Shown piece after piece: positions 27,247-46,759 of a stretch of 52,067 nucleotides of DNA. Under the pieces are notes generated by a model. The model searched no databases. It was given only the letters and a program-made list of their open reading frames with translations, and was not told the origin of the DNA. Origin of the DNA: a virus; the IMG/VR virus record IMGVR_UViG_3300034691_000021, positions 1-52,067 of that record. One strand, written 5' to 3'. A program made the translations under genes and the position numbers. The stretch's first letter is position 1. Each line of letters begins with the position of its first letter.

Positions 27247-27269
27247 TGGTGTTTCCTCTATGCAGAAAT

Positions 27270-27296: not shown

Positions 27297-27316
27297 GGGT
27301 TTGCCCAATGGGCGGA

Positions 27317-28308: not shown

Positions 28309-28694
28309 TTTCTGGCCTGCACGCTGAAGCCGACGTTGAGGCCGGCGTAATTCCAGGGCTCGACGTTCTGCACCGTGTAGGTGTCGCCGTCGAACAGGAT
28401 CTTGTCTTGGCTGACTGGCTTGGGCATGTCGGCACCAGTCAGTAGTACCGGGGAGATCAGCAGCTTGACGTCGCCTCGCTTGATCAGCGTTCCGTCAATA
28501 TCGCTGCTCTTGTAGTTCTCGCGGACGCCTGAGCCATCGAACTGGTCTGGGGTTGTCGGCATATTCCCGGAGTCAGGGTCATAGTCGCCTGAGGTGACGC
28601 GGATCAATGACAACTCCAGCCCTTTTCCGCCCTTGCTGCGCGGAGCCAGCAGCCTGATCGCCATGACCTTGGCTCGATCATAGATGTCGGTCAT
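28305..28694 (-). CDS. Head closure / neck protein
   Basis: A 129-residue beta-rich protein in the slot between the connector and gp10-like genes. DIYDRAKVMAIRLLAPRSKGGKGLELSLIR, then DKILFDGDTYTVQNVEPWN look like head-closure (gpFII/SPP1 gp16-type) proteins that plug the portal channel. Assignment is by position and style. Four-base overlaps on both sides. Confidence 0.65.
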   Translation of the reverse strand: MTDIYDRAKVMAIRLLAPRSKGGKGLELSLIRVTSGDYDPDSGNMPTTPDQFDGSGVRENYKSSDIDGTLIKRGDVKLLISPVLLTGADMPKPVSQDKILFDGDTYTVQNVEPWNYAGLNVGFSVQARK

Positions 28695-29197: not shown

Positions 29198-29200
29198 GTG

Positions 29201-30253
29201 CTACCCCAGCGGGAAAGGTTGTGTTTGCCCGACGAGCGGACGCGTGTTCGTTTGGCCGTTGAGCGGATAGACCTGCTCCTGTCCGGCAAGCGGCAGGGTT
29301 TGGGTCAGTCCATGCAGTGGATAGGCCTGAGTCAGCCCATCAAGCGGATGATGTCGAGCGGTGGCGTCGGTGCCGGTCGCGTTTCCGTCAGCAGGATCAA
29401 ACGACACTTCGTCGATGGTGCCGGTCGTTACCGCTGAACCCGACACACTGGTCGCCGGCGCCGTGAAGATGATCGGCACGAATGATCCATTGGCCGATAC
29501 CGAAGGCAGTGCCGAACCTGTGGGAGCGGACAGCCCCATAAAGGCCGGAGAAACAGACTTAGACGCGCCACCTAGAGCAGTTGCACCTGTGGGAGCGAGT
29601 GTGATCGATGCAGGCGCTGCCGAGGCGTTGCCGCCTGCCGATGTACTGCCAGAGGCTGAGGCATTCGGCGCGGCCTGGGTGACGCTGGCCATCGAGGCCG
29701 ATACGCCTGCCGAGCCAGCACCAGACACAGCCGGCGAATTCAGCGACACAAAAGCGATGGCCGCAGATCGTGTCGCGGATCCGTTTCCGATTGCAGTTGG
29801 CGCGCTCGTCGTGATCGCAGCAGGAGCCGCAGACCGTGAGGCGCTACCAGTGGCAGTCGATGCAGGAGCAGACAGCGCCAGCGAATCAACAGCAGCACTG
29901 ATGGACGCATTCGCAGTCCCGGCAGCCGTACCGATTAAAACCGACAGCGATACTGCGGCAAATGATCCGCTCGCCTCAGCATCAGGTGTCCCGGCTCCCT
30001 CGGCCGAAGCGTCAGGCGCGGCAAGCGTCACCTCAGCAAATGCGCCAGAGGCCACAACATCATCCACGCCTTCAGCGACAGCATCCGGAGCAGACATGGA
30101 CACTGAAGCCAGGCTGCCGAACGCATCCGGACCCTCGGCCCGCCAGAATTCGCCAGCGATCAATGATGGCGTCTGGCTTTCAAGCCGCTGCGTCACCAGA
30201 TCCGTCGTAGTCAGCCTGCCCGAAGGCGCAAACCTCCAAGCATTAAAGGCCAT
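29201..30253 (-). CDS. Repeat-rich virion protein (about 11 Ala/Ser repeats plus 9-residue repeats)
   Basis: A 350-residue protein. After a 35-residue head (MAFNAWRFAPSGRLTTTDLV), residues 45-300 hold about eleven degenerate units of 22-26 residues with the core SGSFAAVSL.AP.A.A.G. This would suit a beta-solenoid or a row of small beta units. The last 45 residues are five 9-residue repeats of PL.G.TQ. (PLDGLTQAY, PLHGLTQTL, PLAGQEQVY, PLNGQTNTR, PLVGQTQPF). Location among head genes suggests a head decoration or fibre. I recognise no family. The composition makes a long antisense frame, which I reject. Confidence 0.75.
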   Translation of the reverse strand: MAFNAWRFAPSGRLTTTDLVTQRLESQTPSLIAGEFWRAEGPDAFGSLASVSMSAPDAVAEGVDDVVASGAFAEVTLAAPDASAEGAGTPDAEASGSFAAVSLSVLIGTAAGTANASISAAVDSLALSAPASTATGSASRSAAPAAITTSAPTAIGNGSATRSAAIAFVSLNSPAVSGAGSAGVSASMASVTQAAPNASASGSTSAGGNASAAPASITLAPTGATALGGASKSVSPAFMGLSAPTGSALPSVSANGSFVPIIFTAPATSVSGSAVTTGTIDEVSFDPADGNATGTDATARHHPLDGLTQAYPLHGLTQTLPLAGQEQVYPLNGQTNTRPLVGQTQPFPLG

Positions 30254-30257
30254 GGGA

Positions 30258-31055
30258 TCACCCGTTTACGACTTCAATCGTCATGTCGAAGATGCCGGTC
30301 GCCGTGCTGTCAGGCGTGACGATCGCCATCAAGGCGCTGTCCGCAAAGATCTGCGGCATGCCTGTCTTCAGGAAGTCGTGCGTGTCGCCGAAGTTGGCAG
30401 CCATCACACGACCAGACCAGAGGCGGCGCAACACCAGGACGTTGAATGTCCCGGCAGATGATACCGAGCTGGTGATCGACTCAATGGTCCGGACGCCGGT
30501 GTCGCCCGACTGAAGAGGCAGCTGAACCATTCGGCCGACAATCGGTGCGGCACCGGTGGCAATCGTGCCGGTCGTGCGGCCCGTTGTCCCGGACTGGTTC
30601 GTGTAGGTCACCACGATACTTTGGTTGCCCGTGAACGCCGTTACCGCCTCGATCCAGACCTCTGTGTTGGTGAAGTCCGTGCCGCCAATCACCCGGCCCG
30701 AATAGCTGGGCTGAACTGACAGCGTGGTCGAGGAGTTGAACGCATACGCGCCAGCCTTCCACAGGCAATCGAACAGCGTGATGCGGCAAGGCACCGTGCT
30801 GCCGAAGGAGATGTTGCTGATGTAGCCCGTATTGCCGCCGCCGAACGCGTTGATGACCGGAAAGCCGGCCGTCGCATCAGTAGGTACAATGCCTGCCGTG
30901 GTGTTCGTCCCGGCCAACGTACCCGCGCCCGGGTTGCCAGCCGCCTGAATCACCTGGGTAGGCATCAGCGCAACCGCCGTCACCGACGCCGTCTTGGTGA
31001 TCTGCACCCGCTGCGAGGCGGCAGCGATATAGCCGTCAAGCGTCGTAATAGCCAT
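30258..31055 (-). CDS. Minor head / virion structural protein (265 aa)
   Basis: A 265-residue beta-rich protein with Thr/Ser/Gly-rich strands (VIGGTDFTNTEVWIEAVTAFTGNQSIVVTY). SGRVMAANFGDTHDFLK and MPQIFADSALMAIVTPDSTATG look like segments of phage capsid-associated proteins. Five bases downstream of the repeat-rich gene's partner in the head cluster. Probably a virion protein, but the exact role is not readable. Confidence 0.6.
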   Translation of the reverse strand: MAITTLDGYIAAASQRVQITKTASVTAVALMPTQVIQAAGNPGAGTLAGTNTTAGIVPTDATAGFPVINAFGGGNTGYISNISFGSTVPCRITLFDCLWKAGAYAFNSSTTLSVQPSYSGRVIGGTDFTNTEVWIEAVTAFTGNQSIVVTYTNQSGTTGRTTGTIATGAAPIVGRMVQLPLQSGDTGVRTIESITSSVSSAGTFNVLVLRRLWSGRVMAANFGDTHDFLKTGMPQIFADSALMAIVTPDSTATGIFDMTIEVVNG

Positions 31056-31063
31056 CAGATCAC

Positions 31064-31483
31064 CTAGCGGTTGACGTAGAGCGGAGAGGACAGCGTCACG
31101 GTAAACGTGCCCGCCGTGCTGGTGACGGTGCCGCCGAAGTCCACGAAGGTGACCAGCTCGTCAGTAGCAGCAGTGCCGACCGACTTGTAGATCCAGGCAC
31201 CGACGGCCGAAATGGTCGCCGAGGTGAAGGCTGCAGGGTTGCCGAAGGTCACCGCCACGCGGTTGTTCGACGTATCGACTGAGCCGACAGTGCACGTTAC
31301 CGTCGCGCCGCCCGTTGCGTACGAGCCTGAGGCCGCCACTTCAGTGACGATATCGTTGCGGAAGTCGAAGGTGTCCAGCTCAGTCTCGGACGGAACCGCC
31401 GAAACCAGCAGCATCTTGAACGTGCCGGAGAAGTAGGCATCAGCCATACGCTTCGGGAGGAATAGCGAATTCGCTGATGCCAT
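31064..31483 (-). CDS. Virion structural protein (139 aa)
   Basis: A 139-residue protein. It starts MASANSLFLPKRMADAYFSG and has a jelly-roll-like beta pattern (ATVTCTVGSVDTSNNRVAVTFGN, AVGAWIYKSVGTAATDELVTFVDFGG). It sits after the coat gene where decoration or neck-associated proteins are found. Function by position only. Confidence 0.6.
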   Translation of the reverse strand: MASANSLFLPKRMADAYFSGTFKMLLVSAVPSETELDTFDFRNDIVTEVAASGSYATGGATVTCTVGSVDTSNNRVAVTFGNPAAFTSATISAVGAWIYKSVGTAATDELVTFVDFGGTVTSTAGTFTVTLSSPLYVNR

Positions 31484-31486
31484 GAC

Positions 31487-31654
31487 TTATACCTCTTTCC
31501 AGCCGAGCAGTCGGTGCGCGGCCAAACAGGTCGGATGCACCATTAGGGTTTCGCCGTCTTTGCATACGGCAATCAGGTGACTTTCATCCGCCTGATTTGA
31601 ATTCTCGTCAGCGGCAGCCTTGGCGGCGCGCTGTTCTTTCGTCAGACCAGCCAT
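31487..31654 (-). CDS. Small conserved phage protein behind the coat gene (55 aa)
   Basis: A 55-residue protein (MAGLTKEQRAAKAAADE...) with a CAGGAGTG site. The second half (VCKDGETLMVHPTCLAAHRLLGW) matches small proteins common between coat and neck genes in Mu-like and lambda-like phages, in which a His-Pro and a closing LGW are conserved. Function unknown. Confidence 0.65.
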   Translation of the reverse strand: MAGLTKEQRAAKAAADENSNQADESHLIAVCKDGETLMVHPTCLAAHRLLGWKEV

Positions 31655-31706
31655 CTTTCACTCCTGAACACACAGGGGCCGAAGCCCCTGAGCGTTATTC
31701 GGCGTA

Positions 31707-32837
31707 TCAGCCCAGAACCAAGCACACGTGCTCGGATTGAACCACTTTGAAGCCCCAGGCCAGGTGCAGCTCCCAGGTGGTCTGACCGTACTGCTGGATT
31801 TGCAGCAGCAGGTAGGTCATGCCGTTCTGATCGCTGATCAGCATCTGGTCGATGGTGGCGTTGTCCGGCATTGCTGGCGGACGCATGATGCCGACGACAG
31901 CGCTACGTTCGAACGCGAGGTTCGGTGCGTAGTTGTTGCCGACGGTCATGGCGTTGGCGGTCGGGATCACGATGCGAGCACCAGGACGGCCGAGGCTGAC
32001 AGTGCCAGGAGCAGCAACACCGTTGTTGATGACGTACTTGTTGGTCGAGTCGGCCGCGAAGGTCACAACGTCGCCCGGCAGAGCGGTGCCGGTGCCAGTC
32101 ACCAGAGCGATGTCGCGCACGCCAATAGCAGTCGAGCCGCTGGTGACGTAGGAAGCGCCAGTACCCTTGGTGTGGGTGGTGATGCCGGCCGATTCGGTGA
32201 TAGCGAAACCGAACTGACGCAGCAGGCGACCGCTACGGCGCTCTTCGTCGCTACCAGCCTGATAGGCCTGTTGGATGATGCCGAGCTTGCGGGCAGCAAC
32301 ACCAGCGCTCGAATCGATGCACATCTGCAGGTCAGCCAGAGGCGCGCCGTTGTCCAGCAACACCTTGCGCGCGTCGGCGATGATGTTGATGTCAGTGGCG
32401 AACGGGTTGGTGCCGGCGGTGCCTACGGCGCGGGATGCGCCCTGCTTGATGGCAGCGGCGCAGTCAGCTTCTGCCAGGTTGCGCAGCGAGCGCATGCCCT
32501 GGGCAACGAGTTGGCGAACCCATTCGTTGTCAGTGCCGCCGTTTTGCAGGCTTTGCAGCTGCTCGCCGGTCATGTGCCAGCTGACTTTCTTCGAGGCGGT
32601 GATCGCCACGTCGACGCTGGTTGCAGTCGCATCATCGCCAGCCGCTGCAGCAACGCCAGGGGCGAAGTCAGTCGGAGTACGGGATGGTGCAACAGGCACC
32701 TTGACAGTGTCACCTTTGGCGACTTTCTTGTCGTCGAAGTTGGCACTGATCGAACTGATTACCCCGAACGCTTCGTTCGAGACTTCTTGGGCAGCCGAGT
32801 ACAGTACCGGCTGCAATGCGGTGAGAACGTTTGCCAT
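31707..32837 (-). CDS. Major capsid protein, P22 coat-like
   Basis: A 376-residue coat protein. MANVLTALQPVLYSAAQEVSNEAFGVISSI and VAKGDTVKVPVAPSRTP are the start of the P22 coat (gp5) family, which has an HK97 fold plus an inserted domain. Further signatures are WHMTGEQLQSLQNGG and the closing FERSAVVGIMRPPAMPDNATIDQMLISDQNGMTYLLLQ. No protease gene or maturation site is seen. A separate scaffold precedes it, as in P22. An intrinsic terminator lies between the two. Confidence 0.9.
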   Translation of the reverse strand: MANVLTALQPVLYSAAQEVSNEAFGVISSISANFDDKKVAKGDTVKVPVAPSRTPTDFAPGVAAAAGDDATATSVDVAITASKKVSWHMTGEQLQSLQNGGTDNEWVRQLVAQGMRSLRNLAEADCAAAIKQGASRAVGTAGTNPFATDINIIADARKVLLDNGAPLADLQMCIDSSAGVAARKLGIIQQAYQAGSDEERRSGRLLRQFGFAITESAGITTHTKGTGASYVTSGSTAIGVRDIALVTGTGTALPGDVVTFAADSTNKYVINNGVAAPGTVSLGRPGARIVIPTANAMTVGNNYAPNLAFERSAVVGIMRPPAMPDNATIDQMLISDQNGMTYLLLQIQQYGQTTWELHLAWGFKVVQSEHVCLVLG

Positions 32838-32857
32838 GTGGCGGTTTCCTTAAGGCA

Positions 32858-32881
32858 ATAAAAAACCCGCACATGGCGGGC
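32858..32881 (-). terminator. Intrinsic terminator between scaffold and coat genes
   Basis: Minus-strand CCCGC, loop CATGT, GCGGG followed by TTTTTTATTGCC, then the coat gene's ribosome site AAGGAAA. A strong terminator immediately before the most highly expressed gene. Confidence 0.75.
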
Positions 32882-32902
32882 CTTGGTTTGGGGTTTGGTA
32901 GA

Positions 32903-33661
32903 TCAGCCCTTGATGGTCATGCCGCCGCTCATCGCTGCCGCCCGATCTTTCGGGGACAGTGCGTCGAACGCTGCTTGGGTCATGGTCTTGGAGCCATTCC
33001 CGCCGCCATGGCCTGCGCCGCCACCGTTGCCGGTAGCAGGGAACCAATGCGGGCGGGTTTCTTTCATTTCCGCCATCCACTCTTTGAGCGTCAGCGGCTT
33101 ACCGTCTTTGCCGTACTTGCCCTCGCGGGCGACGGGGTTACCGTCATCGTCAAGCTCGAAGTCGCGGGATGCGGCGAGCATGGCGTCTTCCATGGCGTAC
33201 TTGTGCACGCCTGCTTCGGTCGCAGCGCCGATCACTTCACCCTTCAGCACGCGCGAGGCGTACTTCTCGGTGCGGCTGGATGCATTGGTCGCGGCGTCCT
33301 GTGCCAGCTTCAGGTCTTTCTCGAAGCCAGCCTTCATGCGATCGGCACGCTTGGCCAGGACGGTGTCGATGTCGCCCTTGGCAATGAGCTGGGCTTCTTC
33401 GTCGTTCGCAAACTTCGAGAGGATGCCGCGCACTGCTTCTGGATCGATGCCGTCGAAGGACTTCAGCTTCTCGCCGTATTCCTTCACCTTGCCGAGCAGT
33501 TCGGAGTTCTTGCTCTTCAGGCCATTGGTGACTTCGGAGAGCTTCGAATCGAACAGGGCTTGCTGCTCTGGCGTGAATGCTGCCCCCTGGGAGCCACCAC
33601 TACCTTCGCCGCCTTCACCACCACCTTCTTCCTGCATGAACAATTGCTTGAGCTTGAACAT
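32903..33661 (-). CDS. Scaffolding protein
   Basis: A 252-residue protein directly upstream of the coat gene. It begins with a Glu/Gly-rich stretch (EEGGGEGGEGSGGS), then a long helical charged body (LSEVTNGLKSKNSELLGKVKEYGEKLKSF) and a Gly-rich C-terminal linker before a helix (TMTQAAFDALSPKDRAAAM). This is the layout of phage scaffolds that bind coat by a C-terminal helix. Size and place fit. Confidence 0.8.
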   Translation of the reverse strand: MFKLKQLFMQEEGGGEGGEGSGGSQGAAFTPEQQALFDSKLSEVTNGLKSKNSELLGKVKEYGEKLKSFDGIDPEAVRGILSKFANDEEAQLIAKGDIDTVLAKRADRMKAGFEKDLKLAQDAATNASSRTEKYASRVLKGEVIGAATEAGVHKYAMEDAMLAASRDFELDDDGNPVAREGKYGKDGKPLTLKEWMAEMKETRPHWFPATGNGGGAGHGGGNGSKTMTQAAFDALSPKDRAAAMSGGMTIKG

Positions 33662-33699
33662 CTGCTAACCCCTTGGGTCTGTTGGCCGCCTGGCGGCAA

Positions 33700-33726
33700 T
33701 AAAAAGCCCCGTCATGGACGAGGCTT
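33700..33726 (-). terminator. Intrinsic terminator upstream of scaffold (proximal)
   Basis: Minus-strand AAGCCTCGTC, loop CAT, GACGGGGCTT (10-bp stem with one G-T pair), then TTTTTATTGCC. Lies 17 bases downstream of a second strong terminator. Confidence 0.85.
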
Positions 33727-33743
33727 GTGTGAATCGCGGGCAT

Positions 33744-33770
33744 AAAAAAGCCCAGCGGTTAGGCTGGGCT
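33744..33770 (-). terminator. Intrinsic terminator upstream of scaffold (distal)
   Basis: Minus-strand AGCCCAGC, loop CTAACC, GCTGGGCT with six T. It ends the short gene or gap region before the scaffold. The pair is a tandem terminator. Confidence 0.85.
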
Positions 33771-33777
33771 CTGCCGG

Positions 33778-33981
33778 TTACCTTAATCCGGCGCCAAACG
33801 TTTCCATCTGGCGGTTCATTCCGGCCTGATCCGCAGCGTTGTGCTGTTTCACTACCGGTGTAGAGGGTAGAAACACCCCGGCGGATGCCAGGGCTGCTTG
33901 AATTGGGTGGAGGGCCGGTGCTGATCTCCGGCTTGAAAAGACTTGGCGCCATTTGGGTGCACCCCGCCGCGCCTGGAACAA
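33778..33981 (-). CDS. Doubtful small gene in the gap before the scaffold
   Basis: The 360 bases between 33662 and 34021 hold no clear gene. This 67-residue TTG-start frame ends VKQHNAADQAGMNRQMETFGAGLR and stops seven bases before the tandem terminators, which makes it the most natural of three overlapping frames. It lacks an ATG and a good ribosome site. A frame at 33665-34009 runs through the terminators. It could also be a decayed gene. Confidence 0.3.
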   Translation of the reverse strand: MFQARRGAPKWRQVFSSRRSAPALHPIQAALASAGVFLPSTPVVKQHNAADQAGMNRQMETFGAGLR

Positions 33982-34021
33982 TCCATAAGTCGCCCATCAG
34001 CCTGGGCATTCACTCCATAAG

Positions 34022-34273
34022 CTATGTGACGACGACGCGCTCGCCTTTGAGCAGGCACACGACGCAAAGCAGCGCCTTCGTCCCGCCAGTTGGCTTGCCG
34101 TTCTTCATCAGGACGCCGATCAGGCTGACGACCACTTCCCTACCGCCACAACGATGGCACTGAACCATCGCCTCAGGCTTCGGCATCGCACGCACACGAC
34201 GACGCACCTGCTCGGCCGGGGTGTCCGGTTGAGCGGTGCCGTCGATTACGTGGAAGCGGGGTTTGTCGGTCAT
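34022..34273 (-). CDS. Zinc-ribbon protein (83 aa)
   Basis: An 83-residue basic protein with CHRCGG and, 30 residues on, CVVC, forming one zinc ribbon. It carries MKNGKPTGGTKALLCVVCLLKGERV. The N-terminus (TPAEQVRRRVRAM) is helical. It lies in the head cluster between MuF and scaffold, and function is unknown. Four-base overlap with the gene before it. Confidence 0.65.
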   Translation of the reverse strand: MTDKPRFHVIDGTAQPDTPAEQVRRRVRAMPKPEAMVQCHRCGGREVVVSLIGVLMKNGKPTGGTKALLCVVCLLKGERVVVT

Positions 34274-34569
34274 ACCTTGTCGACGATCGCCCGAACGGCC
34301 TGCAACTTGACTAGCATGTCGGCCGTTGGGTTGTGGCAGGCAACAGGCCCGTTCTCAGCCATGAACTGTGACATCGGGCTCAATGCGTAGCGGATATCAT
34401 CAAGCAAATCGCGCAGCCTGACTATTTCAGCACCGGCCTTATCCAGAACAGGCCATGGGTCAGCCTCGATCTGCTTACGAGACGTCTCAACCATTCCCAT
34501 CAGGCGGAGATACTTTTCCTGCATCTGGCCTGCGGTGATCTTGTCCGAGATATCGACAACGTTGCTCAT
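34270..34569 (-). CDS. Small helical protein in the head cluster (99 aa)
   Basis: A 99-residue protein from the ATG at 34569 (MSNVVDISDKITAG...). The body is helical (EKYLRLMGMVETSRKQIEAD, AEIVRLRDLLDDIRYAL) and ends MLVKLQAVRAIVDKV. A GGTAGGTG site precedes it. No family recognised. It separates the MuF gene from the zinc-ribbon gene. Confidence 0.6.
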   Translation of the reverse strand: MSNVVDISDKITAGQMQEKYLRLMGMVETSRKQIEADPWPVLDKAGAEIVRLRDLLDDIRYALSPMSQFMAENGPVACHNPTADMLVKLQAVRAIVDKV

Positions 34570-34591
34570 GGCACCTACCCGTGTTGTTCGG

Positions 34592-35707
34592 TCAGGCCGC
34601 CATCTTAGCAAATGCCGCAGCGTCACGGGCGCGCATCTGGTCGAGCGTCATCCACTCGCCGGTCGGCGTGTAGAAGTCCTCCAGATCAAGCCTGCCATCC
34701 TTCAGCAACTGAGCGCGCACCGGGCCTAGAACCTCGATCTTGCGGGCGTCCGACTGGCGGTTGAGCCATTCCTTATAGTTGAGATCGCCAGGGACTTGGC
34801 CATCCATAGAGGCCCGCTGTCCGGGTGTCATGGAATCGATATCAATTCCAAGCTCGCGCCATGACTTGGTGCGAACGATTGATGTGCTTCGGCAGCAGAA
34901 GTGCAGGCGCCCAGGGCCTTGAAGCCAAGGGATCTTGTGACCGATCGGCTTGTGCGTGACGGGCGTGTATGACTTTTTGTCGCGGATGATGCAGCCGGGA
35001 GAGGTTTTCAGGTCGAGGACCGAGGTCCAATCTTCCGACTTCAGGATCTCTTCATTGGCTTTATTGAACTCATCCCGCGCAGTCGCCGCAGTATGGCTGA
35101 CAGCCGTCCTGACGACCGCTGCAAGGTCTTTGCGGGGCCGCTCAAGGAAGCCGTCGGCGTATCCAGTAGCCCGAGAGCCACGAATGCCGCGAATGATCTG
35201 GTCAGTCGTCTTGCCTTCGAGGTAACCGGTGCGGATGGCGTTGCGGATCTTGACCATGCGGTCGGCGGCGATCTCGGTTGACCAGTTGCGCAGTAAGCGG
35301 CCCTGGAACGGGCGAGACATCGCAGCCGCGTATGCCTGCTCGGCACTGACACTGGCAATCGGGAATCGAACCTGAACCGGGTTAGGAATGGCCGACTCGA
35401 ACAATGCTCGCTGCCAGCTCACCTCGTAGCCTGCCAGGTCCTTCAGGTCGTTCTGTAGCTCAGTGGCTACCGACGCATAGGTCTGACTGTTGATCAGTCT
35501 CACCTGATCCAGCAGCAGCTCCAGGCGCTCAACCGTGAAGGACTCAGCCGGCAGGCGCTCTAATGCAGCGGACAATGCCGCCGAGAGGCCAGCATCGGAC
35601 CTGTTCAGCAGCGCAATGATCCGCCGGACCACGCCAACCTTGTACTTTTCGAGGCTGACCGCGTGGGCCACCTGCTCGTCCTCGATGATCTGGTTGACGG
35701 TTGGCAT
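34592..35707 (-). CDS. MuF-like head morphogenesis protein
   Basis: A 371-residue protein downstream of the portal. The region RTAVSHTAATARDEFNKANEEILKSEDWTSVLDLKTSPGCIIRDKKSY, with its later GRLHFCCRSTSIV, is the MuF (SPP1 gp7) domain, including the conserved Cys and His-Cys motif. A helical N-terminal half (1-120) contacts the portal. Proteins of this family are packaged in small numbers in the head. It is adjacent to the portal gene with no gap. Confidence 0.9.
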   Translation of the reverse strand: MPTVNQIIEDEQVAHAVSLEKYKVGVVRRIIALLNRSDAGLSAALSAALERLPAESFTVERLELLLDQVRLINSQTYASVATELQNDLKDLAGYEVSWQRALFESAIPNPVQVRFPIASVSAEQAYAAAMSRPFQGRLLRNWSTEIAADRMVKIRNAIRTGYLEGKTTDQIIRGIRGSRATGYADGFLERPRKDLAAVVRTAVSHTAATARDEFNKANEEILKSEDWTSVLDLKTSPGCIIRDKKSYTPVTHKPIGHKIPWLQGPGRLHFCCRSTSIVRTKSWRELGIDIDSMTPGQRASMDGQVPGDLNYKEWLNRQSDARKIEVLGPVRAQLLKDGRLDLEDFYTPTGEWMTLDQMRARDAAAFAKMAA

Positions 35708-37099
35708 TTAGAGAGTCCCGAGGCTCGGCCCCTGTTCAGCAATCTTGGCCTGCTCGACCGCCCATTTGATGTCTTTCGACACCACATTGCGGCGTTGCAG
35801 TTCGGAAAACAGCGTCTCGTCCGAGATCTTGCCAGCCAGGTTCAGCTGAATCAGTGCTGGGATCGAGATCTCAGGGATGTAGTCGGAGTCGAAGTTCCCG
35901 TTGACAGTGACGTGACCGCCCTTCTCGGCGCCGGTAAGTTCAGCGAAGAACTGAAGGATCTGATCGATGGCGTCTTCGAGCTGTCCGGCCATTGTCTTCA
36001 GCGGGCTCAACTCTTGCGCAGCATCATCTTCAGCCTGGAACACGGTCTTCGTGGCCGACTTTTCCTTCTCGACGAGCTTCGCGCCTGCGATGCGCATCTG
36101 GTCTTCGAGGCTATCAAGCGAACCCTGGCCTGCTTCGATGGACTTACCGGTGTGCTCGACCCACTCCATTTTGCCATTGGTTGGCAGCTTGGTAGCGGAT
36201 GCGGTGCCGACCTTCAGCTCCCACGTATCATCATCGATGCCCGAGATAGCCAGCATCGGCACCCGGGCGACGTGCAGGATGTTGTCCTGATCGCTCTGTG
36301 AGCGCCAATGCTTGACGTTGAGGTGTGCGAGCTCAAGTAGTGGCGGCTCGGCCGTCATGAAGCCTTTGCGCTTGGTGTAGTAGGTGGTCAGCGGGATATG
36401 GCTCAGCGATGTACGGCCTTCTTTGTGCAGCATCCACGACTTTTTGCCTTTATCGTCTTCCTTCTCGCGGTAGGTCTTCCATGCACCAGGGAGCAAGACA
36501 CGAATCTGCTTGATCTCTTTGACGCCGAACTCACCATCCTCCTCCTCAACCGACTCCATGTAGCGGAACTGGGTCAGGACGTGCTCACCACCATCATTGC
36601 TGGATCGCCAGCCAATGACCTGCTGAGGGCGAATCATGATCACGTAGGGGCGCGCTTTGACAGCCTGAGCATCGGCCAGCGTAACCAGCTCACCCTCGCC
36701 CTGCGGTTGGATGTTCGGGTACTCAGCCAAGGCATGGCACAACCCATGCGACAGCGCCTGGGTGAAGAATGTATCTGACCATACCTGCAGGTTGTTGCCT
36801 TGGCGGTCGATGTCTTCGATGAAGACCTTAATCTTCGGCGGGACATCCTCGCCTATCGTAATAGGTTCGGCGAACACCCGGCCTGCGTTGTTCTTGATCG
36901 TCTCGCTGTAGGCAGGGATCAGGGTCGAAAGGCTCAGACGCTTCTGATAGTCGCAGTCTTCCTCCTTCGGCCACTTCGGCAGCAGCTGCTCGCCTGCCTC
37001 GCGCATCGCCCGGGTGCCGCCCATCAAAGGATCGACGATGGCCCAGTCTTCGCGCATGGCGCCTACTGCCGGTAGCGTTTTGCTCGGGTCATCAGACAT
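35708..37099 (-). CDS. Portal protein (DUF4055)
   Basis: A 463-residue portal of the DUF4055 type. The start (REDWAIVDPLMGGTRAMREAGEQLLPKWPKEE) and GLCHALAEYPNI plus YVIMIRPQQVIGWRS are family marks. The stretch PPLLELAHLNVKHWRSQSDQDNILHVARVPMLAISG is near the channel helix. As a dodecamer it forms the DNA gate of the head. Two bases after the terminase stop. Confidence 0.9.
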   Translation of the reverse strand: MSDDPSKTLPAVGAMREDWAIVDPLMGGTRAMREAGEQLLPKWPKEEDCDYQKRLSLSTLIPAYSETIKNNAGRVFAEPITIGEDVPPKIKVFIEDIDRQGNNLQVWSDTFFTQALSHGLCHALAEYPNIQPQGEGELVTLADAQAVKARPYVIMIRPQQVIGWRSSNDGGEHVLTQFRYMESVEEEDGEFGVKEIKQIRVLLPGAWKTYREKEDDKGKKSWMLHKEGRTSLSHIPLTTYYTKRKGFMTAEPPLLELAHLNVKHWRSQSDQDNILHVARVPMLAISGIDDDTWELKVGTASATKLPTNGKMEWVEHTGKSIEAGQGSLDSLEDQMRIAGAKLVEKEKSATKTVFQAEDDAAQELSPLKTMAGQLEDAIDQILQFFAELTGAEKGGHVTVNGNFDSDYIPEISIPALIQLNLAGKISDETLFSELQRRNVVSKDIKWAVEQAKIAEQGPSLGTL

Positions 37100-37101
37100 A
37101 T

Positions 37102-38382
37102 CTAGATTCTCAGAGGTGCGGTAGAGGCGGTGCGCTTGACGATCGGGAAGCGCTTCATGATGAAGTAGCCAAGGGCGTCGTTCGGGTCTTCCGTGCCGTC
37201 TTTGTTCGGTTCGCCCTGGTCGTTGTAGGTCTGCTGTTCAAGTACGCCTGTTGCGACCGGGCAGAGTTCGGTGTTGACCTTGTAGCGGCGCTCACCGTCG
37301 CCATTGAGGAACATGGCGTTGACGGACAGCACTCGGTCACGCACGGCAGGGTTCGCCGGGTTGACGACAAGGGTGAAGCCAGCGGTTCGAAGCAGACTGT
37401 GATCGGTCTCGCTACCGTTGACGCTCTTGCGGTTGTTGCCGCTGGCATCCGGGTAGATTGAGATGTGATGGCCTGGGTACTTAGCCTTCAACGCATCGAT
37501 CATCGCTGGCGTGTCGAACACATGGGTGATCTCGCCCAGCAGCATCGGCTTGCCGTCGCGGATGACGTGGACCATTGCAGCCATTCGACTGATGTTGAAG
37601 TCGAGGCCTATATGCAGCGCCTCACCGGGCTTGATCGTCTCGCTGGTGTGGTTGAGCACCCGACAGAAGCTCGGGTACACGCTGCCAGACACCAGATTGA
37701 CGAACTTCCCGTCGATGTAGGCATCCACCAGATTCGCCGGGTACGACTCTTTGAGCGACCCGATGTAGTCCTTCGGCAGGTTCTTCGCGTTATCCCGCGT
37801 ACTGGCATGCACGATGCCGTATAGCGGGCGCTGGCTCGGGTTAGCGGCCAACTCGCGCACGAACTTGCGATAGACCCAGTTGAAGCCTTCAGGTGTCGTC
37901 GTGACGTCAATCGTGTTCTGGTCACGGCCAGGCCAAACGGTCGACATCCGCGCAATGATCTTTTTCCACGCGCTGTCAGCCTTCTTGATCGGCATGCAGT
38001 CGATCTCATCGACCAATGCGTGCGCAATGTTGAAGCCGACGATGCGGTGCGGGTGCTCCATGCTCTTGCACACGATGGTGCTCAGGCAGCGCCCAAGGTT
38101 GTCACGCAGGTAAACGCGCTTCTTGCTGGCCACGATATCGGCGAACAATCCGAACGCCTGTGCGACCTCTGGCATCGTCTCGTAGAAGATGTCGGCGATC
38201 TGCGGATAGGTCGGGGCGAAGTAGCCCTGTGGAATGCCAGGATTCTCCAGCGCGTTGATGCACATGCGCACGCAGCCAACGAACGTCTTGCCGCTACGGT
38301 AGCCGCCGACGAACGCTGAGAACTTTTTAGGGTGGCTGATGAACTCGAACTGCGGCCTATTCAGCTTCAGGGTCGCTTGCAT
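37102..38382 (-). CDS. terL: Terminase large subunit
   Basis: A 426-residue packaging motor. Walker A is GGYRSGKT (26-33) and Walker B ALVDEID (122-128). The nuclease domain has acidic residues at IGLDFNIS (Asp261), YPDASGNN (Asp312) and DPNDALGYF near the end. It pumps DNA into the head and cuts concatemers. It overlaps the small subunit by 26 bases, an arrangement that suggests coupling. Confidence 0.95.
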   Translation of the reverse strand: MQATLKLNRPQFEFISHPKKFSAFVGGYRSGKTFVGCVRMCINALENPGIPQGYFAPTYPQIADIFYETMPEVAQAFGLFADIVASKKRVYLRDNLGRCLSTIVCKSMEHPHRIVGFNIAHALVDEIDCMPIKKADSAWKKIIARMSTVWPGRDQNTIDVTTTPEGFNWVYRKFVRELAANPSQRPLYGIVHASTRDNAKNLPKDYIGSLKESYPANLVDAYIDGKFVNLVSGSVYPSFCRVLNHTSETIKPGEALHIGLDFNISRMAAMVHVIRDGKPMLLGEITHVFDTPAMIDALKAKYPGHHISIYPDASGNNRKSVNGSETDHSLLRTAGFTLVVNPANPAVRDRVLSVNAMFLNGDGERRYKVNTELCPVATGVLEQQTYNDQGEPNKDGTEDPNDALGYFIMKRFPIVKRTASTAPLRI

Positions 38383-38914
38383 CTTCCACCCCGATGATTA
38401 CTTTCTTGGGCTCGGGCAGGCCCTTGTTCGGGTCTTCCAGTTCGCGGCGGAGCTTCTCGTTGGTGAGCCGCTTGTTCTCGATCTCGATGCGCTTCAGCTC
38501 GCCATCAAGGTCAACATGTTCTTTGTCGCTGAACAGTTTGAGGTGCTTACCAAGCAGCTCGAATCCCTTGAGGACGTTCTTTGCGTCAAACCCAAAGGCT
38601 GGGGCCAGATCTCCGTCAGGTGTATCAACGAACACCGGAGCGCCCGACCGGTCCAGCACGGGGGCAACCTGGCGGCAACGCTCGATGACCTCAACTATCC
38701 CGGCGAGCACATAGTCCTGCGTAATGCCGGTCCTTTCCGACCTCCCCTGCATCGCATTCTTGAGTGCTTTCGCAATCTCAGGTTTTGTCAGGTTCTCTTG
38801 CCCAATCGATGCAGCCGTCTTCTTGCTGTAACCTGCACGGATAGCCGCTTGCGTGGCATTCAGGTCTTTCAGGTACTCGTCGACGAAGCGCTGCTGTTTC
38901 GCTGTCAGCGCCAT
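38357..38914 (-). CDS. terS: Terminase small subunit (Terminase_2)
   Basis: A 185-residue protein. LTAKQQRFVDEYLKDLNATQAAIRAGYSKKTAASIGQENL is the HTH of the Terminase_2 family, which binds the pac or cos site and recruits the large subunit. The C-terminal half is a coiled coil and an acidic tail. No cos or pac site can be assigned from the sequence, though the 99 bases upstream are a candidate. Confidence 0.92.
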   Translation of the reverse strand: MALTAKQQRFVDEYLKDLNATQAAIRAGYSKKTAASIGQENLTKPEIAKALKNAMQGRSERTGITQDYVLAGIVEVIERCRQVAPVLDRSGAPVFVDTPDGDLAPAFGFDAKNVLKGFELLGKHLKLFSDKEHVDLDGELKRIEIENKRLTNEKLRRELEDPNKGLPEPKKVIIGVEDASDPEAE

Positions 38915-38954
38915 AGGGATTCCTTGAGACTTTGGTGCCTCGCTGGGGCAGGTC

Positions 38955-38983
38955 TTGAAATAGAGGCTGGTTGCCGGTATTGA
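38955..38983 (+). promoter_or_regulatory. Possible promoter for the opposite-strand moron at 39014
   Basis: TTGAAA (38955-38960), 17 bases, TATTGA (38978-38983). The -35 is good and the -10 fair. It would start transcription about 25 bases before the + gene, which runs against the late operon. Confidence 0.4.
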
Positions 38984-39013
38984 TGAGGATCAACTCAACG
39001 CAAGGAGAGCACC

Positions 39014-39214
39014 ATGGCTCGCTACATCGTCAAACCACCGCAACCGAAAGAGTCTGTAAAGGGCTTTGAAGTCAGAGACGAAGACTTCCGCCCCCACTAT
39101 GAAGCCATTCACTTCCATATCGTCGATACGGTTACCGGGCAGCACGCAGGTGATTTCGAGCATGAGGCTGATGCCATCGCTCGTGCTGCTGAGCTGAATC
39201 ACTCCAACCCATAG
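39014..39214 (+). CDS. Small protein encoded against the late operon (66 aa)
   Basis: A 66-residue protein (MARYIVKPPQPKESVKGFEV...) with a strong GCAAGGAGAG site, on the strand opposite to the surrounding late genes. HFHIVDTVTGQHAGDFEHEADAIARAAELNHSN has a compact beta-alpha pattern typical of small DUF proteins. A minus-strand frame at 38990-39202 overlaps it and looks like a shadow. Orientation and its own ribosome site suggest a moron between terS and the HslV-like gene. Confidence 0.65.
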   Translation: MARYIVKPPQPKESVKGFEVRDEDFRPHYEAIHFHIVDTVTGQHAGDFEHEADAIARAAELNHSNP

Positions 39215-39224
39215 GTGTTCGCGC

Positions 39225-39656
39225 CTACTCCGCCTTGATGGTCAGCGTTCTGATCTTGCCGCCAGTGCAGCTATCTCGCTTCATGGCCATCTCGACGGCT
39301 TGGTAGGCAGATGCGCCCATGTCCATTGCGGTGTAGGCATGGTCTGAGCCGCTGCCGATCGCATAGGGGCGATCAGTCAGCACCTGGCTCTTCTCGATGC
39401 CTTCCTCGTCGTCATGGCTTACGTACCAGACCTCACCACCAAGCACTACCAGGGCGTACGCACCTACTGAGGTTTGAGGGTCGCCGAAATAAGCATCGAC
39501 CAGCTTGTTGATGCCTGAGGTATTCCCGCAGAACACAAACCTGACACCATCCCGCTCAACGCATTTGTCAAAGTCGTCATAGACGATTGTCCCTGACCCA
39601 GTTGTTGCTCGACCGTCATAGGCGATGATGCCGTCCTTGTAGGCGATCGTAGTCAT
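39225..39656 (-). CDS. HslV/proteasome-beta-like Ntn-hydrolase protein
   Basis: A 143-residue protein. MTTIAYKDGIIAYDGRATTGSGTIVYDD is the N-terminal strand pair of the Ntn-hydrolase fold used by HslV and proteasome beta subunits, with Thr at position 2. VRFVFCGNTSGINKLVDAYF and RPYAIGSGSDHAYTAMDMGASAYQAVEMAMKRD are matching helices. Phage proteins of this type are known and their role is unsettled. Whether the Thr is exposed by Met removal and active is not shown. It overlaps the next upstream gene. Confidence 0.75.
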   Translation of the reverse strand: MTTIAYKDGIIAYDGRATTGSGTIVYDDFDKCVERDGVRFVFCGNTSGINKLVDAYFGDPQTSVGAYALVVLGGEVWYVSHDDEEGIEKSQVLTDRPYAIGSGSDHAYTAMDMGASAYQAVEMAMKRDSCTGGKIRTLTIKAE

Positions 39657-39829
39657 TTGGTCGCCTCATCAGTAGGGATCACTTCACGGTATCGCTTGGC
39701 GATACGCGCCTGGGCCTGCAGCTTCTCTTCATCGGCCTCAAGGCCGGCGAGATAGGCAAAGGTGTGCACTGCCACGACGTAGAACCTGAACCACCATGGG
39801 TAGTAGGCCTTCAATGTGAGCGTTGCCAT
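39653..39829 (-). CDS. Small membrane-associated protein (58 aa)
   Basis: A 58-residue protein with aromatic-rich N-terminus and a membrane-like stretch (WWFRFYVVAVHTFAYLAGL, residues 12-30) followed by a charged helix. It overlaps the HslV-like gene by four bases. The sequence MATLTLKAYYPWWFRFYVVAV is one I associate with small Pseudomonas phage proteins next to holins. Function unknown. The 115 bases upstream hold no gene. Confidence 0.55.
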   Translation of the reverse strand: MATLTLKAYYPWWFRFYVVAVHTFAYLAGLEADEEKLQAQARIAKRYREVIPTDEATK

Positions 39830-39944
39830 GGCGTCACCACGCGGATCTGCAATCTACTACCAGTATTCCAGCCGTTTCAGCCGGATATGCGCAGTCTATT
39901 GCGTGTAGAGAGTGGCGCCCGCACGAAGCCAGGCACCCTTTGGT

Positions 39945-40205
39945 TTAATCGGGGATCTTGCAGATGTGGCCGCGCCGGGCGATCGCGTAGAGGATCACCG
40001 CGGCATGCAGCGTCATCGCGAACGGGCTGATCGGGTGACCCTTGATGTTGAGGATGAAGCTGCCGAACGCGGCGATGGCCACCAGGTAGAACGAGATACT
40101 CAGCAGAGGCTCGTCCATAGGGCGCACACGGCGCAGGTACTCAGCGGCAGCGATCACCACCAGCACACACAGGAATGCATCGACGACTTGCAGGATGGTA
40201 TGCAT
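39945..40205 (-). CDS. Holin-like membrane protein (86 aa)
   Basis: An 86-residue protein with three predicted spans (about 4-23, 37-53 and 62-78: VVDAFLCVLVVIAAAEYL, LLSISFYLVAIAAFGSFIL, FAMTLHAAVILYAIA) and short loops, the class I holin plan. Holins form the lesions that release the cytosolic endolysin. It pairs with the next gene upstream, with a one-base overlap between the stop and start. In Pseudomonas phages holin genes are often placed before terS, as here. Which of the two is the holin cannot be told. Confidence 0.6.
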   Translation of the reverse strand: MHTILQVVDAFLCVLVVIAAAEYLRRVRPMDEPLLSISFYLVAIAAFGSFILNIKGHPISPFAMTLHAAVILYAIARRGHICKIPD

Positions 40206-40522
40206 TACGCACCTCCCGAGACGCCAAACATTCCCGGCAGTGCTTTCTTCAACAGGGGAATGATGTTCATGGCCAGCAGGCCAATCAGGAACGCGACGCC
40301 GTATTGAGTTTCACCGCCCGGTTCAAGCTTGAAAAAGCCGATTGCCAGAGGCGTGCAGAAGATTGCAGAGCAGAACCCGGTGAAGAATGCCCAGAAGGCT
40401 TGCTTGCGGGTCAGGCCCTGTAGAAACGTCAGCGAGAGGATTGCTCCCGCGAAGCCAGCAATGATAATGCCGTACTTCGCGAGCAAGACGCCGGCGGCAG
40501 TGGTGCTCGCGGGTTCGGCCAT
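40205..40522 (-). CDS. Holin-like membrane protein (105 aa)
   Basis: A 105-residue protein with three hydrophobic spans (about 14-34, 40-60 and 70-90: KYGIIIAGFAGAILSLTFL, AFWAFFTGFCSAIFCTPLAIGF, YGVAFLIGLLAMNII), and a short polar C-terminus. MAEPASTTAAGVLLAKYG is an N-terminal form I associate with phage holins. The ATG at 40522 has a TTGGAG site and sits just behind an intrinsic terminator. Confidence 0.65.
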   Translation of the reverse strand: MAEPASTTAAGVLLAKYGIIIAGFAGAILSLTFLQGLTRKQAFWAFFTGFCSAIFCTPLAIGFFKLEPGGETQYGVAFLIGLLAMNIIPLLKKALPGMFGVSGGA

Positions 40523-40539
40523 GGCGTGACTCCAAGGAA

Positions 40540-40566
40540 TAAAAAAGGCGCCAGTGTGAGGCGCCA
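40540..40566 (-). terminator. Intrinsic terminator before the holin pair
   Basis: Minus-strand GGCGCC, loop TCACACT, GGCGCC then TTTTTTATTCC. The 3' part of the T run runs into the holin ribosome site. Confidence 0.8.
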
Positions 40567-40592
40567 AAACGCTGGGGAGCGCGGTGAATTAG

Positions 40593-40847
40593 TTAATCTG
40601 CCGGGGTGATGTCCACGTAGTAGGCCTTCCCCTGTTCCAGCTTTTCAGCAACATGGGTGGCCATCGTCAGGTTGAACTCGCCGAATGGTGTAGCCTTGCC
40701 GAACACGGCGTTCTCGTCGGCCGGGTTTCCGGTGTCGGGCGAGTACACGGCGCCAAAGCGAACCTTGGAGAGAGGATTGCTCTCGTTGGTGTACTCGTGG
40801 GGCCAGATGCCGTGACAGATCAGTTTGCAGCGAATGCGTGTGGTCAT
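40593..40847 (-). CDS. Small phage protein (84 aa)
   Basis: An 84-residue protein (MTTRIRCKLICHGI...) with the beta-type pattern VRFGAVYSPDTGNPADENAVFGKATPFGEFNL, which I associate with small Pseudomonas phage proteins of unknown role. It stands between two terminators, so it may be separately read. The 173 bases upstream hold a noncoding stretch with the bidirectional terminator. Confidence 0.6.
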   Translation of the reverse strand: MTTRIRCKLICHGIWPHEYTNESNPLSKVRFGAVYSPDTGNPADENAVFGKATPFGEFNLTMATHVAEKLEQGKAYYVDITPAD

Positions 40848-41020
40848 GGGTTGCCTCTGCAGTTATGGAGGCAGGTTTGTCTATCAGTCTTGCGCCTGCG
40901 GAATAAGTCAGCCACAGCAGCACTCCCGGCTTAGAGCGACGGGTGTGGCCGGGCTGAAATTACTGGGCTTGATACGCCCGGGAAAGCATCCACTTAGGTA
41001 GCGGCTTTCCTCGGAGGTAC

Positions 41021-41049
41021 AAAAAAGCCCGGACTTTGTCCGGGCTTTT
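41021..41049. terminator. Bidirectional intrinsic terminator
   Basis: GCCCGGAC (41027-41034), loop TTT, GTCCGGGC (41038-41045) with six A on one side and four T on the other, so it can end transcripts from either strand. It lies downstream of the exported-protein gene on the minus strand. Confidence 0.85.
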
Positions 41050-41068
41050 CTTTTGCTACCAAGCGTAT

Positions 41069-41368
41069 TCAGCAGCGCATCAGGCTTTCACCGAAGCCGA
41101 CACCTTCCGGGTCAGCCTTGATCGATGTCATCACGAAGTGATTGCTGGATGCGCGCAGGTTACTTTTCAGATCTTGGCCATCGGACTGGCTACCCGTTCG
41201 CCACATGGCGAGGGTGAGCTCCAGTCGCTGCATGGCTACACCTTGCGGCTCGGCCAGAGCGGTCAGGTGATAGCTGACGGCTCGCAGAGGCTCGGCCATT
41301 GCACCCATCGAGAAGCAGGCGAGGCATGCGGCGAACGCAAACCCCAGATACGTGGCGAAACGTCGCAT
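41069..41368 (-). CDS. Exported periplasmic protein (moron)
   Basis: A 99-residue protein with a clear Sec signal peptide: basic MRRF, hydrophobic YLGFAFAACLACFSMG, cut site probably AMA-EP (residue 25). The mature part (LRAVSYHLTALAEPQGVAMQRLELTLAMWRTG...) is about 75 residues with one Cys at the very end. It is bracketed by terminators on both sides and has a GAGGAA site. Among late genes this looks like a moron affecting the envelope, which is inference. Confidence 0.7.
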   Translation of the reverse strand: MRRFATYLGFAFAACLACFSMGAMAEPLRAVSYHLTALAEPQGVAMQRLELTLAMWRTGSQSDGQDLKSNLRASSNHFVMTSIKADPEGVGFGESLMRC

Positions 41369-41405
41369 ACGGCATTCCTCGTTGATTTTGGTTTTCTTCG
41401 GGCAA

Positions 41406-41434
41406 TAAAAAACCCGACACGGTGGCCGGGTTTT
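41406..41434 (-). terminator. Terminator just downstream of the late promoter (tR'-like)
   Basis: Minus-strand AACCCG (41427-41432), loop, CGGGTT (41411-41416), then TTTTTTATTGCC. It lies about 65 bases from the predicted start of the late promoter and would stop transcripts unless a Q-like factor acts. A few T on the other side give weak action on the + strand. Confidence 0.75.
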
Positions 41435-41477
41435 GTACTGTCATTCTTTAACACGCAAGAAGGACAAGATAGTGATT

Positions 41478-41506
41478 AATCTATGCCAGTCTGCCACTTT
41501 CGTCAA
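41478..41506 (-). promoter_or_regulatory. Putative late promoter (pR'-like)
   Basis: Minus-strand TTGACG (41506-41501), 17 bases, TAGATT (41483-41478), a good sigma-70 match (5 of 6 and 4 of 6). The -35 overlaps the stop codon of the gene at 41503-42048, and a terminator follows within about 65 bases. This is the arrangement of pR'-tR' in lambdoid phages. Confidence 0.6.
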
Positions 41507-42048
41507 GCGGCAATATCACCAATCAGGCCCTCTGCATCCAAAATCCCCTGAGCCTCTGCCAAAGCAGCGTCAACCATGCTCTTCAGCTCCTTGCAGATGG
41601 CTGACTTCCAGCGGTATTGGGTGCGCTCAGCGGTAGGCTCATCGAGCCAGTTGTCCATGCAGTACCACCCGGACGGCAGGACATTGGTCGAGCGCTTCCC
41701 TTCTTGCCCTGGCAGCTTCGGCATTGCCCAAGTGACGACAGCAGCATGACGGAACCGCTCGGGGGCTGGCGACTTCATAGCCTTGGCGATGGTCACGATC
41801 GCGTCATGCTTGCGCTGGGTGTGCGTGGAGTACTGGGCCAGCAGAGCCAGCCAGTGCGCCGGGGCAAGGCCTTTACGCAGCCGGCTGAAGACCATGCAGT
41901 CGACGAGAAACGCCGCCTCCTTCCCAACGATCTCCCCCTTCTGCTTGGCGCACTGGACCTTCGGCTCGAAGTCATTGCCACCGGCCGAGTTGATGGTTTC
42001 GGTGGCCAGAGCGCGGACCACTGCGGATACCACGTTGCGATAGGTCAT
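41503..42048 (-). CDS. Unknown protein at the Q position, candidate late antiterminator
   Basis: A 181-residue basic protein beginning MTYRNVVSAVVRALATETINSAGGNDFEPKVQCAKQKGEIVGKEAAFLVDC, followed by FSRLRKGLAPAHWLALLAQYSTHTQRKHDAI and WYCMDNWLDEPTAERTQYRWKSAICKELK. The pattern of short helices and Lys/Arg, with several Cys, fits a compact nucleic-acid-binding protein. I do not recognise lambda Q family signatures. The case for a Q role is its place at the end of the PR operon and the promoter-terminator unit right behind it. It overlaps the metallophosphoesterase by four bases. Confidence 0.55.
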   Translation of the reverse strand: MTYRNVVSAVVRALATETINSAGGNDFEPKVQCAKQKGEIVGKEAAFLVDCMVFSRLRKGLAPAHWLALLAQYSTHTQRKHDAIVTIAKAMKSPAPERFRHAAVVTWAMPKLPGQEGKRSTNVLPSGWYCMDNWLDEPTAERTQYRWKSAICKELKSMVDAALAEAQGILDAEGLIGDIAA

Positions 42049-45776: not shown

Positions 45777-46000
45777 GGCTGGACTCCAGTCTTCTTTCTC
45801 ACCTTCCCTTCCGCCTCAAGCTGACGCATAGTTGCGCGCAGCGTTTTTAGGTCATAGTGAAACTTGAGGTACTTTCCGATTAGTCCGATCTTGGCGTTGA
45901 TTGTCAGGCCAGCCACAACAAGCATCCCGAACACAAGAGTGGCGCCACCTATCAGCATCACGCCGTAGCCCAGCCACAAGGCGATTGAATCAATAGTCAT
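45773..46000 (-). CDS. Small membrane protein (75 aa)
   Basis: A 75-residue protein with an N-terminal hydrophobic region (LWLGYGVMLIGGATLVFGMLVVAGLTI, residues 8-34) that is one or two spans, then a basic cytosolic tail (LKTLRATMRQLEAEGKVRKK). Overlaps both NinB and the zinc-finger gene by four bases. Function unknown. Confidence 0.6.
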   Translation of the reverse strand: MTIDSIALWLGYGVMLIGGATLVFGMLVVAGLTINAKIGLIGKYLKFHYDLKTLRATMRQLEAEGKVRKKTGVQP

Positions 46001-46215
46001 AGCCGCCGCACTCCCTGCTTCACCAGCGCCACCCGCTCAGCACAACCCACGCACAGCTGCACCCCCGGAATAGCCTGACGGCGGCCTTCCGGGATCTCTT
46101 CTGAGCACTCTTCGCACTCAAAGGCGCTGATGCCGGTGTAACGGGGGATCTGGGCGATGGACCGATTGAGGGACTCTTCGATTGCCTCATCGGCGAGATC
46201 GGCGATATCAACCAT
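45997..46215 (-). CDS. DksA/TraR-type zinc finger protein (72 aa)
   Basis: A 72-residue protein from the ATG at 46215. FECEECSEEIPEGRRQAIPGVQLCVGCAERV is the four-Cys finger of the DksA/TraR family (CxxC, 17 residues, CxxC). The N-terminal helix is short. Small TraR-like phage proteins bind RNA polymerase and alter promoter use, or may be inert. Overlaps its neighbours. Confidence 0.8.
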   Translation of the reverse strand: MVDIADLADEAIEESLNRSIAQIPRYTGISAFECEECSEEIPEGRRQAIPGVQLCVGCAERVALVKQGVRRL

Positions 46216-46759
46216 TGGAAGGCTCCTTGGCAGCGCGGCGCGCATCGTGAAAGGCCAGAACCTCTTGCATGCCGTTGTCGACCGCGACGATTTCCCGGTC
46301 GAAGTAGGCCTGAGCGAGCGTTTCGTTTTCAGGTGGCAGCTCTCCAGGGCCAACCAGCGAGTTGTAAATCCACATCATGGCGCCCTCTGCGCCAAGTCCA
46401 TGCTCTTCCTCGATGACCGCCGTGCGCATGGCAATGATGTAGCGGCCGAACAGCAGATCCAGCTCCTTGATCCGCATGCGGGCGACTTCGTTCTCGTCCT
46501 TCAGCTTGTCGCGTTCACCGATCAGGGCCAGCACGGCGACTGGGTTGGCGGCCGCGTAATACTGGGCAAGTGTCGAAGCGTGCGACTCGGCGTCGTATTG
46601 CTCGGTGTCGATTGTCATGACGGGGTAGCGATTGCCCTCCTCGTCCACCTGGCCGACCTGCCAGTCAGGACCATTCTCGTCGCAGGGCCAGCACTTGGTG
46701 AGGTTGTCCCAACCAGCCATGCCTTCGGCCAAATTCTTCAATTCACTGTGGTCGGTCAT
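46208..46759 (-). CDS. Ead/Ea22-like protein
   Basis: A 183-residue protein. The segment ESHASTLAQYYAAANPVAVLALIGERDKLKDENEVARMRIKELD is the conserved core of Ead/Ea22 early proteins, whose role is unknown. It is upstream of the DksA-like gene and downstream of P. The remainder is helical. Confidence 0.72.
   Translation of the reverse strand: MTDHSELKNLAEGMAGWDNLTKCWPCDENGPDWQVGQVDEEGNRYPVMTIDTEQYDAESHASTLAQYYAAANPVAVLALIGERDKLKDENEVARMRIKELDLLFGRYIIAMRTAVIEEEHGLGAEGAMMWIYNSLVGPGELPPENETLAQAYFDREIVAVDNGMQEVLAFHDARRAAKEPSNG

Follow-up and report, generated by a model that had tools for sequence, protein, structure and literature searches.

AlpA of Pseudomonas aeruginosa is a Q-like antiterminator that functions as a chromosomal cell-death regulator (PDB 7xya and 7xyb; PMC7969949, PMC9371919). 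Its gene lies directly upstream of the target promoter, a terminator, and a holin-type operon, and a single protomer of AlpA binds to one asymmetric site (GGGACG) between −35 and −10. The DNA contacts tested in AlpA are K138, S139, T140, and H142, and the AF2-predicted structures of lambda Q and 82Q have been described as AlpA-like (PMC9371919). The QBE of phage 21 consists of directly repeated TGAGCA with critical C:G pairs at −21 and −13; it is bound by two protomers of the Q protein of this phage (21Q), and its subsites, which lie between −35 and −10, have a spacing of 8 bp (PMC6606751). The 21Q system also includes a −10-like pause element and tR′, and it has a late-gene role. In lambda, the pause is at +16/+17. 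Temperate phages of the D3, F10, and JBD44 types are common in Pseudomonas; in the public records that we searched, no regulator is assigned to their late genes, i.e., those for lysis and the virion. Here, we present a computational analysis of a locus in a Pseudomonas virus in which a gene for a candidate antiterminator is directly followed by its predicted target.

Results

The 181-aa protein is encoded in front of the late operon and belongs to phrog_3412

The stretch of DNA analyzed here (the window) is a virus record of 52 kb (52,067 nucleotides). On its minus strand, a run of genes for O, P, NinB, NinG, nucleotide metabolism, and a phosphoesterase leads up to a gene encoding a protein of 181 aa (42048..41503). 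This gene directly precedes a predicted late promoter and the late operon (13627..41368, minus strand), which, based on PHROG matches, encodes a small exported protein, a holin (40567..40205, minus strand), TerS, TerL, portal, head proteins, MCP, tape measure, and tail J. In lambdoid phages, Q occupies the same position. The sole PHROG match of the 181-aa protein was phrog_3412 (E 6e-65), a family described as of 'unknown function', and scans against Pfam and NCBIfam matched no family. With a pI of 8.9 and 23 K+R versus 19 D+E residues, the protein is indeed basic, as the first-pass annotation had described it.

Scans identified ~300 relatives in phrog_3412 (222 loci on viral contigs and 80 in genomes); where a host is named, it is nearly always Pseudomonas. 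The named members D3 orf84, F10 gp58, JBD44 gp12, and MD8 gp61 are 32 to 41% identical to the window protein. In F10, JBD44, MD8, and MPK9, the family gene likewise precedes lysis or late genes, and in D3 it has the equivalent position. The member WHS04309.1 of PseuP_222 (OP626800; PMC10305613) is labeled 'transcription regulator, anti-termination', whereas nearly all of the other ~60 phage records with a family member refer to it as a 'hypothetical protein'; in the passages on PseuP_222 that we found, the label comes without a site, a mechanism, or evidence. This label apart, our literature search returned no study of the function of the phrog_3412 family. In phage MR15, the member gp72 (3001..3546 of locus L085) is annotated as a 'putative prepilin peptidase', apparently in error. 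In MD8, the annotation 'antitermination protein Q' is attached to gp60 (2667..2963 of L084), a 98-aa protein that belongs to phrog_5085, has weak matches to zinc motifs of the anti-TRAP/DnaJ type, and has no counterpart among the window proteins scanned. Its neighbor gp61 is the family member, is followed by the promoter block described below, and is the better candidate for the antiterminator of MD8.

A promoter-terminator unit overlaps the end of the gene

The promoter that had been proposed for this site, TTGACG-N17-TAGATT (41506..41478, minus strand), is present, is of the sigma-70 type, and overlaps the TGA stop codon of the 181-aa gene. Its −35 element TTGACG (41501..41506), which shares the stop codon, lies in a gcTTGAC motif conserved in most relatives, and its −10 element is TAGATT (41478..41483). 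Between −35 and −10 are two predicted QBE subsites that correspond to the family-wide 8-bp direct repeat, i.e., TGGCAGAC (41489..41496), starting at −25, and TGGCATAG (41481..41488), starting at −17, relative to a predicted +1 at 41471. The predicted start coincides with a putative −10-like sigma-pause element, TATCTT, at +1 to +6 (41466..41471), for which the family consensus is YATCYTG; a pause-like motif, TTGCG, in which TGCG is conserved family-wide, follows at ~+14 to +18 (41454..41458). A tR′-like intrinsic terminator, consisting of a hairpin and a T run (AAAACCCGGC-CACCGT-GTCGGGTTTTTT, 41434..41407, minus strand), comes next, and its T tract is ~65 nt away from the predicted start (~41471). 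The terminator is found where it had been placed, and so are six further minus-strand terminators within the late operon (at ~41026, 40550, 33749, 33705, 27276, and 20187). Two strong terminators are arranged in tandem at 33765..33704 (minus strand), in the middle of the head-gene operon; such a pair inside an operon would be unusual unless the polymerase were antiterminated.

Taken alone, the promoter hexamers do not exceed chance (3 matches, compared with an expectation of 6.6 when the same 19 kb are shuffled), and the direct repeat in the single spacer of the window has a p of ~0.03. Because the promoter match in the window is by itself no better than in shuffles, the case rests on conservation across relatives.

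The cis block is conserved across the family

In most relatives, the stop codon is followed in the same order by TTGAC (usually sharing TGA), direct repeats whose period is 8 bp, a −10 element, CATCCTG or TATCTTG, TGCG, and a terminator, and these elements follow the gene down to ~30% protein identity. Using a lag of 8 and at least 5/6 matches as the criterion, we detected the repeat in 74% of 156 unique spacers versus 2.9% in shuffles, a figure that is an underestimate because the anchor pattern used there misplaced blocks of the F10 type; repeats at the other lags from 3 to 13 occurred in 1 to 11% of spacers. The −10-like element YATCYTG begins 11 to 12 bp after the start of the −10 element and is conserved across the family. 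A terminator follows the block in 144 of 191 unique blocks, with a median distance of 61 nt (10 to 90%: 59 to 65) between the T tract and the −10-like element, while a simple rule found no terminator in the remaining 47. The window contains exactly one such block, and 1.5 Mb of opposite strand contains none.

The block is not invariably adjacent to the gene. In six loci with an intervening ORF (L138, L195, L224, L299, L307, and L268), it is located 450 to 2170 bp downstream of the gene, and its repeat type still fits the helix described below; in L249 to L289, the stop codon differs, and the block is still kept as a unit. The displacement of the block together with a repeat type matching the gene argues that it is an independent unit rather than a by-product of the 3′ end of the gene. 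In a few relatives, no block was found within reach. In six other loci (L064, L068, L072, L073, L079, and L296), an ORF, judged by eye to be perhaps HNH-like, starts right behind the stop codon and separates the gene from the block position; a displaced block is present ~550 bp on in L079 and L296, and none was found in L064, L068, L072, and L073.

The repeat core covaries with the start of the last long helix

Codons 141 to 156 (41628..41581, minus strand) open the last long helix (141 to 172 in the model) and include the predicted recognition part of the protein; we identified this part by covariation, the hhalign register, and the AlpA contacts (PMC9371919). In the window protein, the predicted recognition residues are E141-R142-T143-Q144-Y145-R146-W147. 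Across the family, the lineage-specific core of the repeat tracks the motif at this helix start. The core TGAGCC pairs mainly with KTQERW, TGAGCG with [SQ]TRxRW, TGAGAR with STRYRW, TGGCAT with RTQYRW, both TGGCCG and TGTCCG with RTRRRW, TGTCGC with RTYQRW, TGCAAC with TTYWRW, and CCATCA with STRREW.

Among identity-matched pairs, residue 142 differs in 97% of those with different cores versus 5% of those with the same core, and it ranks at the top of 181 columns for covariation, followed by 145, 141, and 139. All 80 comparable rows are consistent in this respect: the 30 rows with R142 all have C at base 4, and the 50 with another residue all have another base. Independent contrasts on the tree agree for R142 and base 4 in five of five cases, for which p = 0.0625 is the minimum attainable with five independent pairs; for labels other than R142, there were too few changes for independent-pair tests to reach significance. 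The members L010 and L025 share 88% identity when the helix is left aside; the former combines R142/S145 with TGGCCG while the latter combines K142/E145 with TGAGCC. In two held-out members, L327 (STRRRW, TGAGCG) and L330 (STRYRW, TGAGAR), the repeat class was as predicted from the helix. A third, L332 (STRREW, CATCA), also fits the rule, although it is the weaker test because it is close to MD8. In the 30%-identical members L328 and L329 (MPK9 and PAE2), the core is new and the 8-bp period is retained.

The predicted fold resembles that of AlpA

AlphaFold2 models were computed separately for the window protein (pLDDT 80) and D3 orf84 (pLDDT 78). In Foldseek searches of 350,542 PDB chains, AlpA was the first match of both models with a probability of 1.00, and no other protein exceeded a probability of 0.15 with either; the match has a modest E of ~0.03 and TM-scores of 0.5 to 0.6. 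For D3 orf84, the top two matches are the AlpA loading and loaded complexes. 21Q, one of the Q proteins with which a structural comparison had been suggested, was only a weak match (6jnx_P; rank 29, E 6, TM 0.32 to 0.38).

By motif and hhalign register, the tested AlpA contacts K138, S139, T140, and H142 align with window residues 141, 142, 143, and 145, and the AlpA stretch equivalent to window residues 141 to 147 is K138-S139-T140-L141-H142-R143-W144. Three of the contact-aligned positions (141, 142, and 145) are among the four best covarying ones; the fourth, T143, is invariant in the family, as would be expected for a backbone contact. At the level of sequence, hhalign to AlpA gave a probability of 6.8% and an E of 0.005 in one comparison with the recognition motif in register, BLASTP against AlpA revealed no significant pairwise similarity (E of 0.028 over 19 aa only), and neither the protein nor its profile retrieved anything useful from the PDB by sequence search. 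Using the published ABE pattern, we recovered an alpA gene that matches PDB AlpA at 1e-111. In these chromosomal loci (L312 to L314, near 1511, minus strand), alpA is followed by the ABE promoter, a terminator ~50 nt on, and a predicted membrane-type ORF, and the order of gene, promoter, and terminator is the same as in the phage family.

The family and AlpA have in common the predicted fold, the recognition motif [K/E]-[S/R/K]-T-x-x-R-W, a binding element between −35 and −10, and a gene directly upstream of promoter, terminator, and holin-type operon. They differ in that AlpA uses its single site, whereas the phage family has tandem repeats of another sequence; also, AlpA serves as a regulator of cell death in the chromosome, whereas the family gene is predicted to control phage late genes. 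In the architecture of the site, the family resembles 21Q, which has no detectable sequence relation to the window protein: the 8-bp spacing between −35 and −10 is the same, the window subsites at −25 and −17 are in the same register as TGAGCA of phage 21, and several lineages even have TGAGCC or TGAGCG. The family shares with 21Q a −10-like, putative pause element, a tR′-like terminator, and the predicted late-gene role. With its end near +17/+18, the TGCG motif is close to the position of the lambda pause.

Lambda Q (PF03589) and Q of the phage 82 type (PF06530) share gene position and proposed mechanism with the family. Neither these two profiles nor PF06323 matched the 181-aa protein. With positive E. 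coli controls in both cases, PF03589 was absent from 33 phage records and PF06530 from 32; a search of phage genomes with PF06323 (Phage_antiter_Q) was also empty, but its controls gave no match either. The description of the protein as not a recognizable Q holds at the sequence level only; by predicted fold, it groups with AlpA and 21Q.

Discussion

The proposal of the first-pass annotation was that the gene is a candidate for a new type of Q whose target is a pR′-tR′-like unit. Four lines of evidence support this proposal, i.e., the conserved repeat with 21Q spacing together with the putative pause element, the covariation of protein and repeat at positions that match AlpA contacts, the two AlpA-like models, and the absence of a Q of the lambda or 82 type from the tested phages. 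Based on sequence comparison, structural models, and analogy to described systems, we consider it very probable that the 181-aa gene encodes a Q-type processive antiterminator that acts on the switch behind its own gene. More generally, the sequences and models support that phrog_3412 is a family of Q-type antiterminators of distinct sequence with an AlpA-like fold, a tandem QBE like that of phage 21, and diversified specificity.

According to this model, the host sigma-70 RNA polymerase would initiate constitutively at the promoter overlapping the end of the gene and pause after ~16 to 17 nt, held by renewed binding of sigma region 2 to the −10-like element at +1 to +6. Without the protein, the polymerase would stop at the tR′-like terminator, giving rise to a short RNA of ~65 nt. 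Once early transcription has led to synthesis of the protein, two protomers would bind to the tandem 8-bp repeat at −25 and −17 via the last helix, and one of them would form a nozzle inside the RNA exit channel of the paused enzyme, as in the case of AlpA and 21Q. The modified polymerase would then ignore tR′ and the six later terminators, allowing transcription of the genes for lysis, packaging, head, and tail. For capture, the nozzle, and read-through, we infer these steps by analogy to AlpA and 21Q.

A protein predicted to read the repeat could instead be a conventional activator that works at the late promoter by recruiting or remodeling RNA polymerase, with the terminator merely closing the upstream unit, and activators that bind in the spacer exist. 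We regard this as improbable because the distance from start to terminator is held at ~61 nt, the transcribed −10-like and TGCG elements are as well conserved as the promoter, the operon is interrupted by six terminators, and the best fold match is itself an antiterminator. The predicted binding site and the core promoter overlap, so that occlusion could in principle occur, and the protein could be an autoregulator or late repressor that shuts off or times transcription behind its own gene. However, in the contexts that we examined, lysis or late genes follow this gene, no Q of the lambda or 82 type was found in the tested phages, and fold and contact residues match AlpA, making a repressor very unlikely. 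That the block is just a conserved gene end with an ordinary rho-independent terminator and looks like a promoter by chance would agree with the chance-level hexamers, but it is hardly credible given that the block shifts off the stop codon as a unit behind intervening ORFs, is kept where the stop differs, and has a repeat that covaries with the protein.

For D3-, F10-, and JBD44-like phages, the antiterminator model provides a concrete candidate for the late regulator and an exact predicted site, and some 60 phage records, mostly 'hypothetical', could be re-annotated. Hundreds of related viruses appear to carry the same pair of gene and switch, in which the putative DNA-reading helix changes in step with the sequence of the switch. 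The natural pairs of helix and repeat could serve as a ready specificity code for orthogonal antiterminators. Moreover, the family would link phage Q proteins to the AlpA death switch of the host and adds a case in which 21Q-type spacing is combined with an AlpA-like predicted fold. We see as an evenly balanced possibility the broader reading that this is a large, uncharacterized Q family that repeatedly rewrote its DNA target, with one AlpA-like scaffold, at least nine QBE cores, and an amino acid-to-base code at positions 139, 141, 142, and 145, and also the phage-side kin from which the cell-death regulator AlpA of P. aeruginosa was domesticated.

Two further observations concern the surroundings of the switch. 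In the same early operon upstream of the 181-aa gene, the window encodes a DksA/TraR-type zinc-finger protein (45997..46353, minus strand; phrog_54), which is possibly a second RNA polymerase-binding factor. In four relatives, D3 among them, tRNA genes are located directly behind the tR′-like terminator (L001, 3656..3732; L062, 3662..3815; L074, 3661..3736; L081, 3684..3759), and the first slot of the late operon seems to be an insertion spot.
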